DNA from: Sneathiella marina
GTDB taxonomy: Bacteria; Pseudomonadota; Alphaproteobacteria; Sneathiellales; Sneathiellaceae
Reading direction: 5' to 3'
Length of the DNA stretch: 64,000 bases
Assembly (NCBI RefSeq): GCF_023746535.1
Contig: NZ_CP098747.1
Location: 2,502,501-2,566,500, forward strand
The position numbers were made by a program, and so were the translations under genes. The notes beneath the pieces are model-generated. The model did no database searches, was not told the origin of the DNA, and worked only from the letters and a program-made list of their open reading frames with translations. Shown one piece after another: positions 3,963 to 19,542 of the stretch. Each line of letters opens with the position of its first letter. Position 1 is the stretch's first letter.

Positions 3963-3988
3963 CTTCTTATCCTTTATGTTTATTGTTC

Positions 3989-5260
3989 TTATTTTTCTAT
4001 TCGCGTTACGCCGCCCATATAAGGGACCAAAACATCAGGAACAGCAATCGCCCCGTCTGCCTGCTGATAATTTTCCATGACGGCAATTAATGTCCTGCCG
4101 ACGGCAAGACCTGATCCGTTCAGGGTATGAACAAAGAGATTGCCTTTCCCCCCTTCGGGCCGGTATCTGGCCTTCATACGGCGCGCTTGAAAATCACCAC
4201 ATGTTGAACAGCTCGAAATTTCACGATACGCCTGCTGTCCCGGCAACCAAACTTCCAGGTCATAGGTCTTGCGTGCCCCAAACCCGGTATCACCGTTACA
4301 GAGCACCACTACACGATAAGACAAGCCAAGACGCTTCAAAACCTCTTCGGCACATTCGGTCATACGCTCATGCTCCGCATCAGACTGATCCGGCGTTGTA
4401 ATAGAAACCATCTCGACCTTGGCAAACTGATGCTGGCGTAACATGCCCGCCGTGTCTTTACCAGCCGAACCGGCCTCTGAACGGAAGCATAACGTGTGGG
4501 CTGTATAGCGTTTGGGAAGATCTGCCTCGTCCAGAATACTTTCCCGAACAATGTTGGTTAAAGAAACCTCTGCTGTCGGGATCATATATTGATCATCACT
4601 GGTTTTATACAGATCTTCTTCAAATTTAGGGAGCTGGCCGGTTCCGTATAACGCATCTTTTCGAACCATTACAGGCGGAGATACTTCCAGATAGCCTTTC
4701 TCCGAAGTATGCATATCAATCATGAAAGCAGCCAACGCCCGTTCCAGGCGGGCAATCAATCCGCTGGTGACAACAAAGCGGGATCCGGACATTTTCGCGG
4801 CTGTTTCAAAATCCATCATGCCAAGGGCATCGCCAAGCTCATAATGCTCTTTTGGCGTAAAATTAAATTCCGGTTTGTCTCCAACAACGCGAAGCTCCGT
4901 ATTGTCTTCGTCGCTTTGGCCTTCCGGCACATCGTCTTTCAGTATATTGGGAAGAACGGACAGAGCCGCCTCCATTTTCTCGTTCAGATCCCGTTCCTGC
5001 CCTTCGAGTACTTGAACAGACGACTTCAGATCCGCCACTTCCTTAATGAGCGCGTTCGCATCTTCGCCTTGTGATTTGGCTTTACCGATGGCTTTTGCTG
5101 CTTCATTTCGGCGAGCTTGTATTTCCTGCAAGTCAGTTTGTACTTTTCGCCGCTGGGTATCGAGCACAATCAATTCTGCAGAAACCGGCGCAACATTGCG
5201 ACGGACCATTGCGGCATCCAGTGCACCGGGATTTTCCCTGATCCATTTTAAATCGAGCAT
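3989..5260 (-). CDS. serS: Seryl-tRNA synthetase
   Basis: A 423-residue class II aminoacyl-tRNA synthetase charging tRNA-Ser. The N-terminal ~110 residues form the long helical hairpin that grips the tRNA variable arm. Motif 2 is seen in [15 protein letters not shown] followed by LRQHQF, the [15 protein letters not shown] block is intact, and motif 3 is [18 protein letters not shown] near the C-terminus. Length is typical. It lies directly upstream of surE. The 137-base gap to tatC's stop contains no gene. Confidence 0.96.
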
Positions 5261-15394: not shown

Positions 15395-16429
15395 TTAACT
15401 TTCAGCCAGCAAACTATCCAATCGAGCCAAATCCGCCACCGGATCAAGAGAATCCTGAACGTGGTCAAAAACCAGATTAGTTGCCGCAATCCGGGAGAGC
15501 GATTTTTCACTCAAATTGGAGCAGGCCGGTGCAACTTCCTGCATTTCCGGCATTTTTCCTGAGCAGTGAAGAACAATATCGACGCCTGCCTGCAGCGCGC
15601 GAGCCGCTCTGTCGGCAAGTGTCCCGGACAAGGCATTCATATTCAGATCATCCGTCAATAACAATCCCTCAAACCCTATATCACCTCTGATAATCTCCTC
15701 AATTACCTTCGCCGATTGCGTTGCTGGAAATTCCGGGTCAATCTGATCAAAAACGATATGGCTAGTCATTCCCCAGGGTAAATGCGCCAGTGCTTTAAAC
15801 GGGATAAAATCCGTTTCACCGAGTGCCTCGCGGGACAAGGTGACCAACGGTAATTCATGATGGCTGTCGACGGTTCCGCGGCCATGACCCGGCATATGTT
15901 TTATTACCGGAAGAATTCCGGCTTGAATCATTTCTTCTGCAACCAATGCTCCAAGTTCCGCGACAACAGCCGGATTGTCGGTAAATGCACGATCGCCAAT
16001 GGCAGCCGCCGTTTCAGGCAACAATAAGTCCAGGCATGGCGTGCAATCGACATTTACCCCAACTGAAAGCAAGTCAGCGGCGATTAACCGCGTTGTCAGA
16101 GCGAGGGCTTCACGTGCAAGTTCAGGATCCGATTTGTAAAGCGCCCCGAAGAATCCGAAGGGCCGAGCATCAAACCAATGCGGGGACCGCATCCGCTGTA
16201 CCCGCCCGCCCTCCTGATCCATAAGCACCGGCGCATCCGGGCGCCCTACTGAAGATCTTAGTTGCTGGGTAAGGTGTTTGACCTGTTCGGGCGTATCGAC
16301 ATTCCGCGCAAACAGAATAAACCCATATGGCTGCTGCTCAGCGAAAAAATCGATTTCCATATCGCTGAGCTGCAGTCCGGCACATCCCAGTATCAAGGAT
16401 TTACAGTTGCGAAGTTTATCTGCTGACAA
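15395..16429 (-). CDS. nagZ: Beta-N-acetylhexosaminidase NagZ
   Basis: A 344-residue GH3 cytoplasmic enzyme that removes GlcNAc from anhydro-muropeptides in cell-wall recycling. The family signature KHMPGHGRGTVDSHHELP carries the catalytic His/Asp loop, and LLTDDLNMNAL carries the nucleophile Asp. Length is typical. It overlaps the SPOR-protein gene by 14 bases. Confidence 0.94.
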   Translation of the reverse strand: MSADKLRNCKSLILGCAGLQLSDMEIDFFAEQQPYGFILFARNVDTPEQVKHLTQQLRSSVGRPDAPVLMDQEGGRVQRMRSPHWFDARPFGFFGALYKSDPELAREALALTTRLIAADLLSVGVNVDCTPCLDLLLPETAAAIGDRAFTDNPAVVAELGALVAEEMIQAGILPVIKHMPGHGRGTVDSHHELPLVTLSREALGETDFIPFKALAHLPWGMTSHIVFDQIDPEFPATQSAKVIEEIIRGDIGFEGLLLTDDLNMNALSGTLADRAARALQAGVDIVLHCSGKMPEMQEVAPACSNLSEKSLSRIAATNLVFDHVQDSLDPVADLARLDSLLAES

Positions 16430-17219
16430 CGAGGCAATCCTGCTTTTTCGCTTTTAGGGATTCACAAAGCTTGTTGGCGTTTGACTTATTTTCATATGCA
16501 CCAGCCTGCAGGCGATGAAAGGTCCCTTTATCCTTAACATCAATATCCTGTACACGGTAACTAACGTTACCAAGAAGTGACGCAAACTTACCTTTTAAGG
16601 TCGTCCATTGTTTTTCAGCAGCTTCTTTATTCCGGAAAGAGCCGAGCTGCACACGATAGCGGACACCGCTTGTACTTGTCGTTGGCGCTTTTGCTACAGG
16701 TTCCGGTTTTTTCGCCGCAACAGTCTTCTCCGGTAACTGAACCGGTTTGGGTGGTTCGACAACAGCCGGTTTATCCGCAACAGCTTCAGGTGATTTCTCA
16801 ATCAGCTTTTCTGCCGGGGCATCATCAGCTTTGGCAGCCGTATCAGGCTCTGTCGTCGCAACGCTCTCCTCCGGCGCAGGATCGTCAGTTGATTCTTCGA
16901 GAGGCGGCATCAGTTTTTCAACTTTTTCCTGTTCCTCACCGGATTTCAATACGCCGAAAACTTGCTTGTCCTGATGCGGAATATCCATTCCGCCGGGCTC
17001 ATCTGGCTTTTCCTTCACCGGCGACGTATCCGCGCTGATGATCGGAGGCGCCAATTGCACTCCTTTTTTGACGCCCTGGTCATAGGCATACCAAATACCG
17101 ACGCCAAACCCGGCGACAATCAGGATCGCCAAAATAGCGCCAATCCATTTACCCTTACTCATTCCCCGATCGTCATCCCCATCATAATAGTCATCATCAG
17201 GAAAATCGTTATTACTCAC
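16416..17219 (-). CDS. SPOR-domain membrane protein
   Basis: A 267-residue bitopic protein: short acidic cytoplasmic N-terminus, one membrane span (about 24-46, WIGAILAILIVAGFGVGIWYA), a Pro/Glu/Ala-rich periplasmic linker (about 80-185), and a C-terminal SPOR domain (about 190-267, starting YRVQLGSFRNKEAAEKQW). SPOR domains bind denuded septal glycan, so a role in division is expected. The start codon overlaps the stop of the ArgS-like gene by one base. Confidence 0.88.
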   Translation of the reverse strand: MSNNDFPDDDYYDGDDDRGMSKGKWIGAILAILIVAGFGVGIWYAYDQGVKKGVQLAPPIISADTSPVKEKPDEPGGMDIPHQDKQVFGVLKSGEEQEKVEKLMPPLEESTDDPAPEESVATTEPDTAAKADDAPAEKLIEKSPEAVADKPAVVEPPKPVQLPEKTVAAKKPEPVAKAPTTSTSGVRYRVQLGSFRNKEAAEKQWTTLKGKFASLLGNVSYRVQDIDVKDKGTFHRLQAGAYENKSNANKLCESLKAKKQDCLVVSR

Positions 17220-18232
17220 TAGACAAACTCCTCTGTCGATTGGAGATCAAGAATGTCTAACCCTTGATCCAGTATCTTTTTAGTTGCGCTTAACAAAAGC
17301 AAACGCGCCAATACTGCCGGCTCAGTCCGCAAATATTCCGATGAGATTGGGCGCCTCTCTTCAACCAGACGGAAAAATAGCAAGGAAACGTCCTGCAGGA
17401 AAGCAATGAGATAAAAAACATCCCTTTTACGCCAAGTTTTTTCCACAGCCATTGGCCATCCACATAGTAATTTTGCCAATTTTACTTCTATGGGCAAACT
17501 TAAGACGGACATATCTGCTGCCGTTTCCTCAATTGCTTTCGCGCGATCCAGCAACTTCATCAGGAACCTACGCGCATAGGGAATGCAAAATACGGGATTA
17601 TCATAAGTCTTATCTATGGCCAAAATGGGGCTGAATGCGTCGATAAACGCTGGCGGATTTGCAATCAAAGCAAAATCTGTCTGAGACTTGCCGCATCTGG
17701 CAATGGCAGTCTCAAGAGGAAAGCCAAACGGTTCTCGTTCAACTTCTGCTCGTTCATCAAAGGACCATCCTGTCAAACCCGCCACAGACCGCAGGCTTTT
17801 CGCATTCACATGTAACCGGGCACTTGTCAAATCATTGACTATATTGGGAAATTCTATTGAAATTTCCTGATTGTCCGGATCCAGTCCATATTTTTCATCT
17901 TTTTCAAGAATTTCTGTAACGCCGTTTTGCCAGATGGCATTCCCATATTTAAGATTGATATATCCACTTTCTGCAAGAACCGCAGTGTCCAGTCCGGGAA
18001 GCTCAGAAAAAGCTTTAATAAATCGATCCTCTGCGTTGAAATCTATTATATATTCCTTTGATTTCAGCAAGATAATGATGTTTGTACAAAGATCGCCCCA
18101 GCCCGTGTTTTTCGGAGGCTTTAAGGAAACCTCTCGATAAATCTGCTGCTTTTGCAGATTATCCAAATCTTCAAGCTCATTTATCGCCTGAAAAAGCGCC
18201 TTTCTGGCATGGAATAAATAGCTCAAAGACAT
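17219..18232 (-). CDS. ArgS-like protein lacking the catalytic core
   Basis: A 337-residue relative of arginyl-tRNA synthetase (normally about 560-590). Residues about 1-118 match the N-terminal tRNA-binding domain (GWGDLCTNIIILLKS, then ESGYINLKYGNAIW). The next strand (ISIEF) is where class I ArgS enters its Rossmann fold, but the HVGH signature has become LHVNAKS, and most of the Rossmann fold including KMSK is absent. The frame resumes at the end of the catalytic domain and the anticodon-binding domain (DNPVFCIPYARRFLMKLLDRA to the LARLLLLSATKKILDQGL C-terminus). It sits exactly where argS sits in the argS-SPOR-nagZ order and is coupled to the SPOR gene. It cannot be an active synthetase. 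It is either a decaying or a repurposed paralogue; a working ArgS must exist elsewhere. Confidence 0.82.
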   Translation of the reverse strand: MSLSYLFHARKALFQAINELEDLDNLQKQQIYREVSLKPPKNTGWGDLCTNIIILLKSKEYIIDFNAEDRFIKAFSELPGLDTAVLAESGYINLKYGNAIWQNGVTEILEKDEKYGLDPDNQEISIEFPNIVNDLTSARLHVNAKSLRSVAGLTGWSFDERAEVEREPFGFPLETAIARCGKSQTDFALIANPPAFIDAFSPILAIDKTYDNPVFCIPYARRFLMKLLDRAKAIEETAADMSVLSLPIEVKLAKLLCGWPMAVEKTWRKRDVFYLIAFLQDVSLLFFRLVEERRPISSEYLRTEPAVLARLLLLSATKKILDQGLDILDLQSTEEFV

Positions 18233-18351
18233 AAAATCACTAACTTTTTAAACGGCAAAAATTGACAAAGAAGGTTAGAGTTAATACATCATTGAGTATA
18301 TAGTAAGTAATATGAAGGCACATGTTCCCTTTCTTTTGAATGCAGGACGGT

Positions 18352-18702
18352 ATGTTTGCAAGCGATAACTCAGAATCCCTGGTAAAATTGTCAGAGTCGG
18401 CAGCGGACAGGATAAATGTCATTGTCGATGAAATGAAATCCGACAAGAAGATGCTGCGCGTCGCCGTAAATGGCGGTGGATGCTCTGGCTTTCAATACAG
18501 CTTTGACCTTGAAGATACGCAAAACCCAGATGACCTTGCCGTAAGTAATAAAGGCGCCACCTTACTTGTCGATCAAATCTCGTTGATGTATCTGGCGGGC
18601 TCGGAAATTGACTATGTAAATGACCTGATCGGAGCGTCTTTCCAAATTAAGAACCCGAACGCGACAGCGTCCTGTTCCTGCGGATCATCATTTGCCGTTT
18701 AA
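18352..18702 (+). CDS. erpA: Iron-sulfur cluster insertion protein ErpA (HesB/IscA type)
   Basis: A 116-residue A-type Fe-S carrier with the three conserved cysteines in NGGGCSGFQY and ASCSCGSSF. It delivers clusters to apo-proteins in the cytoplasm. I prefer ATG 18352 over 18340 because an AGGA element lies about 6 bases before it and the first four residues of the longer form are not conserved. It is divergent from the ArgS-like gene and followed by a terminator and xthA. Confidence 0.92.
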   Translation: MFASDNSESLVKLSESAADRINVIVDEMKSDKKMLRVAVNGGGCSGFQYSFDLEDTQNPDDLAVSNKGATLLVDQISLMYLAGSEIDYVNDLIGASFQIKNPNATASCSCGSSFAV

Positions 18703-18768: not shown

Positions 18769-19542
18769 ATGAAAATTGCAAGCTGGAATGTCAATTCGGT
18801 CAAGGCCCGGCTTCCGCGGCTTGTGGATTACCTTAAAGCAGCCAGCCCCGATGTTCTGTGTTTGCAGGAACTAAAAGTGATCGACGAAGCCTTCCCGCGC
18901 CTGGAAGTCGAGGAACTGGGCTATAATGTTGAAACCCATGGCCAGAAAACCTATAATGGCGTTGCTATACTTTCCAAATTCCCCATTGAAGATGTTATGC
19001 GACGCCTGCCTGGAAACGAGGCTGATGAACAGTCACGCTATATTGAGGCAACAATTAACAATGTTCGTGTTGCGTCCATATATCTTCCGAACGGAAACCC
19101 GGTTGATACGGAAAAATTTCCTTATAAACTTGAATGGATGGATCGGTTAATCGAACGGGCAAAATATCTTCTTACATTGGAGGAACCCACAGTCCTTGCA
19201 GGCGATTACAATGTAATCCCGCAAAATGAAGACTGTTATGACGCAAAGGCCTGGGAAGGTGACGCCCTCACCCAGCCTGATAGCCGCAATCGATTTCGCC
19301 ATATTCTCAATCTAGGTTATGCAGATGCCTATCGCACCTTTACACCGGAAGTAAATTATACCTATTGGGATTATCAGCGCGGCGCCTGGCAAAAGGACAA
19401 CGGGATCCGTATCGATCATTTGCTGCTCTCCCCGCAGGCAACAGATCGCCTCGCCCTTGTCGGTATTGACAAAGAACCCCGAGGTCAGGAACGCCCCTCT
19501 GATCACACACCCATCTGGTGCGAATTATCAAACGCAAATTGA
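18769..19542 (+). CDS. xthA: Exodeoxyribonuclease III
   Basis: A 257-residue AP endonuclease/3'-exonuclease of the EEP fold acting in base-excision repair. Seen motifs: MKIASWNVNSVKARL at the start, CLQELKV with the metal-binding Glu, LAGDYNVIPQNEDCYD, the RIDHLLLS block and the C-terminal SDHTPIWCEL with catalytic Asp-His. Length is typical. The erpA-xthA pairing is common in alphaproteobacteria. Confidence 0.95.
   Translation: MKIASWNVNSVKARLPRLVDYLKAASPDVLCLQELKVIDEAFPRLEVEELGYNVETHGQKTYNGVAILSKFPIEDVMRRLPGNEADEQSRYIEATINNVRVASIYLPNGNPVDTEKFPYKLEWMDRLIERAKYLLTLEEPTVLAGDYNVIPQNEDCYDAKAWEGDALTQPDSRNRFRHILNLGYADAYRTFTPEVNYTYWDYQRGAWQKDNGIRIDHLLLSPQATDRLALVGIDKEPRGQERPSDHTPIWCELSNAN

Follow-up and report, generated by a model that had tools for sequence, protein, structure and literature searches.

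The locus and its genes

The window analysed in this study is a stretch of 64,000 nucleotides of the Sneathiella marina genome. On its reverse strand it harbours a gene of 337 codons related to that of arginyl-tRNA synthetase (ArgS or ArgRS), referred to here as the shortened gene. The coordinates of this gene, of its recognisable parts and of its neighbours are presented in Table 1.

Table 1. Features of the shortened argS-derived gene and of the surrounding locus
Feature	Position	Strand	Basis
ArgS-derived shortened gene, 337 aa plus stop	17219..18232	-	Open frame; DALR_1; shared by 21 of the 24 Sneathiella genomes
N-terminal (D-arm binding) domain, residues 1-97	17942..18232	-	Alignment with native ArgS; Pfam Arg_tRNA_synt_N sub-threshold
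A20 pocket residues Tyr91 and Asn93	17954-17962	-	Alignment with native ArgS
First Rossmann unit, remnant, residues 98-170	17723..17941	-	Alignment; strands and helices of the model
HVGH position, reading DLTS, residues 134-137	17822-17833	-	Family alignment
Post-KMSK segment and DALR domain, residues 171-337	17222..17722	-	DALR_1 at residues 231-334; conservation tables
SPOR-domain gene, GTG start at 17219-17217 overlapping the stop of the shortened gene (TAGTG)	16416..17219	-	Pfam SPOR
nagZ-type glycosyl hydrolase 3, member of the ancestral argS neighbourhood	15395..16429	-	Pfam Glyco_hydro_3
erpA-type Fe-S protein, divergent, upstream edge of the slot	18340..18702	+	Pfam Fe-S_biosyn
xthA-type endonuclease/exonuclease, adjoining erpA	18769..19542	+	Pfam Exo_endo_phos

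The reading frame starts with an ATG at 18232, ends with a TAG at 17221-17219 and contains no internal stop, in agreement with the original prediction of an intact frame of 1014 bases. The predicted coupling to the SPOR gene was also found: of the 23 loci read, 22 had a SPOR start that overlapped or adjoined the end of the shortened frame, and the remaining one stops at a contig end before the junction. As judged from the conserved slot, this coupling may have been inherited from the full-length argS. Beyond nagZ lie frames resembling a membrane protease, ScpA and ScpB (named by eye). The G+C content of the shortened gene was 0.43, compared with 0.52 for the window and 0.47-0.52 for the four neighbours.

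Domain content and predicted fold

The DALR_1 domain of Pfam was recognised above its cut-off in the 337-residue protein (E = 2.2e-7), and Arg_tRNA_synt_N scored 15.8 bits, under the cut-off of 21.5. Across the family, DALR_1 was present in all 20 members, none of which matched any core model, and Arg_tRNA_synt_N was matched at E <= 0.1 in 17 of the 20 (best 7.6e-9). No Pfam model of the catalytic core, PF00750 included, matched the 337-residue protein. Its score against TIGR00456 was 46.2 bits, with a cut-off of 261.65, which places it outside the functional ArgS class.

In an alignment with 26 alphaproteobacterial ArgS, the N-terminal domain and the former HVGH strand and helix were kept, followed by a jump of about 230 residues to about the KMSK motif and then by the C-terminus; the deletion was placed near residues 160-168 of the shortened protein. 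Together with the missing match to a core model, this bears out the claim that most of the Rossmann fold and KMSK are gone. Both histidines of HVGH were replaced in all 19 aligned members, KMSK was absent, and a conserved Arg139 stands just after DLTS, all residue equivalences in this work depending on one multiple alignment. LHVNAKS, which had been proposed as the remnant of HVGH, is not that remnant, as the family alignment puts HVGH on DLTS.

The model of the protein obtained with AlphaFold from 15 sequences was compact and confident (pLDDT 87.4, pTM 0.88). When it was compared with the PDB by Foldseek, the best 20 matches were all ArgRS, with a TMq of up to 0.68. The structural check suggested with the original prediction is concordant with that prediction, the modelled fold being ArgS-like without the core.

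The functional arginyl-tRNA synthetase

PF00750 matched a single place in the genome of the window (G000:C1:3658994-3660046). This place is within a frame of 615 residues, the neighbours of which, as named by eye, are groES-groEL and a frame resembling fructose-bisphosphate aldolase. The functional argS that was to be sought elsewhere in the genome was thus found, in one copy. Among the enzymes of solved structure, those of E. coli and Neisseria matched it best, at about 360 bits; it aligned to the E. coli enzyme over almost its entire length, and in the phylogenetic tree its type was far from the alphaproteobacterial type. In the Sneathiellales the enzymatic role of the native ArgS has thus passed to an ArgS of E. 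coli type encoded elsewhere. A split synthetase with its core encoded elsewhere was ruled out, as the sole PF00750 place is the 615-residue ArgS.

ArgS was found above the family cut-off in 23 of the 25 genomes of the order; the two without it were 56% complete (G017) and 91% complete in 220 contigs (G020). In G020 the shortened gene is present on two contigs, yet no ArgS exceeded the cut-off, which is probably an assembly gap. In the S. glossodoripedis draft (G005), frame breaks were observed both in the true argS (C12:832019-833775) and in the shortened gene (L085, about 3977-4933). These are likely sequencing errors, because the true argS should be essential.

Descent of the shortened gene

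A tree built with IQ-TREE on 338 shared columns placed 19 members and the one from the sister genus in a single clade (support 99) within the alphaproteobacterial ArgS, the node of which set them apart, with a support of 100, from 8 other proteobacterial and 4 foreign-type ArgS. The shortened clade was on a long branch and the inner alphaproteobacterial nodes were weak, so its exact sister is uncertain. Two loci of G020 (L012 and L023, one gene over two contigs) were left out of the alignment, the tree and the dN/dS analysis, and L018 (S. glossodoripedis, with a frame break near the N-terminus) was kept in the alignment and left out of the other two. By its sequence, the shortened gene is a descendant of the native alphaproteobacterial ArgS; with SPOR/nagZ and erpA-xthA as neighbours, it occupies the native argS slot, as originally predicted.

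A different origin would be horizontal transfer of a member of the NrtL family, with no contribution of the resident argS. NrtL is actinobacterial. The NrtL model NF045898 was the best NCBIfam match of the protein, aligning in one stretch (21-331 to 18-322 of 327), and 19 of the 20 members matched it at E <= 0.01. However, the score was 52.1 bits for a cut-off of 340, and the best ordinary proteobacterial ArgS halves reached 80-103 bits, so the match is generic; in addition, the gene occupies the original argS position and branches within the alphaproteobacterial ArgS. Transfer of an NrtL gene is therefore a very improbable origin, and membership of NrtL was ruled out by a score below both the cut-off and ordinary ArgS halves. 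Among the matches listed for NF045898 were two short frames, in G407 (341 aa) and G530 (387 aa), with C-terminal matches and a start less than 700 bases from the contig start.

Distribution within and beyond the order

The shortened gene was detected in 21 of the 24 Sneathiella genomes, the three without it being 56, 65 and 66% complete, and in all 17 genomes of the genus with at least 90% completeness and at most 5% contamination. The one genome of the sister genus encodes a highly diverged homologue of 329 residues, located between SPOR and erpA-xthA, with both domains above the Pfam cut-offs and a family-profile E of 3.7e-6. Orthologues in sister species were thus present and in frame, as anticipated, except in the S. 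glossodoripedis draft, where the true argS is broken too. Copies identical to members of the window's genus were carried by 14 of the 16 contigs encoding a relative. An assembly error at 17219-18232 was ruled out by the presence of the gene in 21 genomes and on these 16 contigs.

In a search of 387 genomes of the class with the family profile, native alphaproteobacterial ArgS were matched as two halves, at about 1-165 and 175-341. Among the matches listed outside the order, these separate halves lay in frames of at least 575 residues, with two exceptions. Restriction of the shortened gene to the Sneathiellales holds among the matches listed at E <= 1e-6, a threshold that would miss even the sister-genus homologue (3.7e-6). 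The two exceptions were short frames of other alphaproteobacteria with an ArgS N-terminal match, at G225:C47:35925-36296 (386 aa) and G046:C17:39274-39651 (449 aa); these may be cut by a contig end, broken in frame or additional cases of a shortened ArgS.

The slot was also read in alphaproteobacteria lacking a recognisable native argS. Of the 57 class genomes without a match, 24 were sampled, to which G172 (also without a match) and G001 were added, giving 26 in total. Of these, 24 were examined and 22 had nagZ, and 20 loci were read (G049 and G380 were left out), including one of just 1.7 kb (L174) that may fall short of the slot. No remnant was detected in these 20 slots with the shortened-family profile at E up to 1. 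Two frames of L167 and L179, 504 and 730 residues long, matched the native ArgS profile weakly (14.0 and 13.2 bits) and were taken for other synthetases. SPOR, erpA, xthA and dgt were recognised in these slots by short motifs only, and on this basis SPOR was seen in 8, erpA in 13 and dgt in 16 of the 20. Slots of lineages without recognisable native ArgS (L167-L186; for example L168, L172, L173, L175 and L186) often contained erpA and dgt motifs, SPOR and nagZ with no argS. The slot of the Sneathiellales is the reverse, dgt being gone and argS retained in shortened form.

The dgt gene, described as absent in the original prediction, is missing from the slot but present elsewhere in the genome (G000:C1:3419016-3420266). 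It was found in 24 of the 25 genomes of the order, the one without it being 66% complete. Two dgt homologues were present in G003 (C12:1183106-1184365 and C18:19488-20738) and one in each of the other 23 matching genomes.

Selection on the shortened gene

The dN/dS of the shortened gene (NG86) had a median of 0.297 and a range of 0.217-0.377 over 21 pairs from 7 close genomes. In the same genomes the values were 0.044 for the foreign argS, 0.040 for erpA, 0.101 for SPOR, 0.112 for part of nagZ and 0.048 for xthA (4 of the 7 genomes), so that the shortened gene was about 3 times higher than SPOR and nagZ and 7 times higher than argS. Bootstrap limits for three pairs spanned 0.21-0.50, with upper limits of 0.39-0.50. 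Over the 210 pairs of 21 members, the median pN/pS was 0.62 and the maximum 0.80; only the close pairs are informative, because synonymous sites were mostly saturated over this larger set.

Such fast evolution, relative to the 0.040-0.048 of argS, erpA and xthA, and such pN/pS values might be taken to indicate slow decay, the alternative raised in the original prediction, or a mere coupling spacer, the frame of a functionless protein being kept so that ribosomes reach the SPOR start, which overlaps or adjoins its stop in nearly all loci. A spacer would, however, need no specific residues, yet 25 columns were invariant in 20 members with an identity to the window protein as low as 28%. The bootstrap upper limits of dN/dS also argue against it. 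In a simple Jukes-Cantor simulation of neutral change, with dS set to the 0.44 of the closest pair, copies acquired a mean of 9.3 stops and none of 1000 was stop-free; at a dS of 0.2, 9 of 1000 were. A pseudogene or spacer is close to refuted by the invariant columns, dN/dS and simulation, and only a slim chance was left to it. The shortened gene is under purifying selection, weaker than that on its neighbours, which upholds the earlier suggestion that the intact frame reflects selection: the closest pairs have a dN/dS well under 1. Almost certainly, then, this is a selected, non-catalytic gene derived from argS.

Conserved and altered residues

According to the accessible portion of PMC8975779, A20 of tRNA-Arg is held in E. 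coli ArgRS by F36, Q40, A78 and N84 and by the stacking residue F82. When these positions were mapped through motif spacing and alignment, every one of the 20 aligned Sneathiella members, as well as the sister-genus protein, had Asn where E. coli has N84. In place of F82, 16 of 19 members and the sister-genus protein had Tyr, and the other 3 had Asp. At the F36 position, which is His in most native alphaproteobacterial ArgS, 16 of 19 members had an aromatic residue. Ala was found at the A78 position in 5 of 19, and Gln at the Q40 position in none, 18 of 19 having Cys or Ser there (mostly Ala or Ser in the native enzymes). Contact residues of ArgRS were also sought in PMC5766645, the accessible portion of which gave none.

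Native ArgS residues among the 25 invariant columns were Asp47, Asn51, Asn93, Phe200, Pro213, Phe215, Glu249, Pro260, Arg310 and Glu335; the sister-genus protein lacks Asn51. Other residues were invariant in the family and different in the 26 alphaproteobacterial ArgS: Phe287 (His in 26), Tyr300 (Arg in 26), Ser201 (Asp in 26), Cys180 (Val in 25) and Tyr210 (Lys or Arg in 25). Pro218 was found in 17 of 19 members. These new family-specific invariant residues are located in segment 171-337. The anticodon side was assessed through the native-invariant residues of the C-terminal part: of 22 such polar residues, 14 were kept in fewer than 30% of members, 4 partly and 4 in at least 80%. The net charge over the same columns was -3 to -21 in the 19 members and -11 to +2 in the 26 native ArgS.

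Because the pocket Asn is kept, most of the native-invariant C-terminal polar residues are lost and the protein is more acidic, a reading of the D-arm is plausible and an ordinary reading of the anticodon is unlikely. The original prediction that both tRNA-binding ends are kept therefore holds for the domains and for the Asn of the A20 pocket and fails for the 14 lost polar residues. Similarly, for the proposed tRNA-Arg binder or regulator, the conserved Asn, as far as sequence can indicate, favours contact with tRNA-Arg, and the C-terminal losses and negative charge argue against ordinary anticodon reading.

The concentration of new family-wide invariants in the C-terminal half, where native polar residues are lost, the more acidic charge and the tight SPOR coupling might instead indicate a protein-protein regulator that uses the ArgS fold only as a scaffold, has lost tRNA binding and binds protein through its new residues. 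Its partner could be an enzyme of arginine metabolism, by a logic similar to that of HisZ, or the product of the coupled SPOR gene, as a partner in the envelope. The coupling says little on function if it was inherited from the full-length gene. In addition, the retention of the pocket Asn in all 20 members and the sister genus, while most native-invariant residues of the N-terminal domain are gone, is hard to explain without RNA contact. Such a regulator is a serious possibility to which somewhat more than a one-in-three chance might be given, only a little less than to the tRNA-elbow mechanism presented below.

Four tRNA-Arg genes were found in 30 of the 45 tRNA places, and all four carry A20, which speaks for contact through the A20 pocket. 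They also bear on a further role, that of a helper that fits the foreign ArgS to the native tRNA-Arg or stabilises it as a heterodimer, as in SLIMP, a dead SerRS paralogue that pairs with the live SerRS (accessible portion of PMC9437257). The shortened gene and a foreign-type ArgS occurred together in 17 of the 18 order genomes with at least 90% completeness and at most 5% contamination, G020 being the exception. However, the foreign ArgS, which aligns with the E. coli enzyme almost from end to end, has its own N-terminal and anticodon domains, the standard A20 of the native tRNA-Arg makes no mismatch evident, and other alphaproteobacteria without a recognisable native argS show no remnant in the slot. 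A helper role was considered unlikely.

Proposed function

The mechanism favoured here, with less than even confidence, is that of a pseudo-synthetase accessory that would touch the elbow of tRNA-Arg and a new partner at its other end. After an E. coli-type ArgS had taken its place as the enzyme, the native alphaproteobacterial ArgS of the Sneathiellales shed about 230 residues, from just past the HIGH helix to about KMSK, and was retained. The product would be unable to charge tRNA, and would serve as a small accessory whose N-terminal domain may still hold the D-arm/A20 side of tRNA-Arg. Its rebuilt DALR end (Cys180, Ser201, Tyr210, Phe287, Tyr300, Pro218) might meet a new partner protein, or a subset or different state of tRNA-Arg. 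The whole would hold tRNA-Arg or serve as its adaptor, much as DALRD3 does for a methyltransferase. If the adaptor reading is true, the protein might serve in tRNA-Arg modification, storage or stress sensing.

Several observations stand against this mechanism, namely the loss of C-terminal polar residues, the charge, the Asp at the stacking site in 3 of 19 members, the changes at the A78 and Q40 positions, the loss of Asn51 in the sister genus and the high dN/dS. The locus also contains no partner gene besides the ancestral neighbourhood, which counts against an adaptor.

Comparison with known systems

The shortened protein shares with native alphaproteobacterial ArgS the N-terminal domain, HIGH-helix unit, post-KMSK segment and DALR domain in order, as well as the gene slot and the position in the tree. 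It differs in the absence of about 230 core residues, the HIGH histidines and KMSK, and in the replacement of many C-terminal invariants. NrtL (NF045898) likewise combines the ArgS N-terminal and DALR domains without the core, and its model of 327 positions is nearly equal in length and aligned in one stretch. The comparison was made by model score, in which the shortened protein fell below ordinary ArgS halves; the likeness is apparently convergent, with an independent origin. No paper on NrtL was among the literature matches listed, and the matches listed for core-less ArgS paralogues, Sneathiella synthetases and truncated ArgS/DALR proteins contained nothing on the shortened protein.

DALRD3 of vertebrates has a DALR domain and no recognisable synthetase catalytic motif; it binds tRNA-Arg-UCU and -CCU and recruits METTL2 (accessible portion of PMC7237682). 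As reported there, its N-terminal part has no recognisable domain, and it belongs to a separate lineage; no METTL2-like partner is known for the shortened protein. The latter is loosely like DALRD3 and a member of neither DALRD3 nor NrtL. HisZ, SLIMP and YadB are also synthetase-derived proteins with a task other than charging their original tRNA (accessible portion of PMC9437257, a review of synthetase paralogues in which ArgRS is not mentioned), but they come from other synthetase families. YadB, as described in that portion, keeps the catalytic domain without the anticodon domain, the reverse of the shortened protein.

In the Sneathiellales a displaced synthetase was trimmed and kept in both genera of the order that were examined, compared with its erasure in the 20 comparable slots read, and the shortened gene offers a testable route from an enzyme to a tRNA-handling protein. 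Tentatively, and with some doubt, it might be the third instance, independent of NrtL and DALRD3, of an ArgS that lost its catalytic core and became a stand-alone protein, with the A20/elbow module kept and the anticodon end re-tooled into a dedicated tRNA-Arg adaptor. If this is true, excision of the core would be a repeatable route by which a displaced synthetase becomes a tRNA-Arg adaptor.
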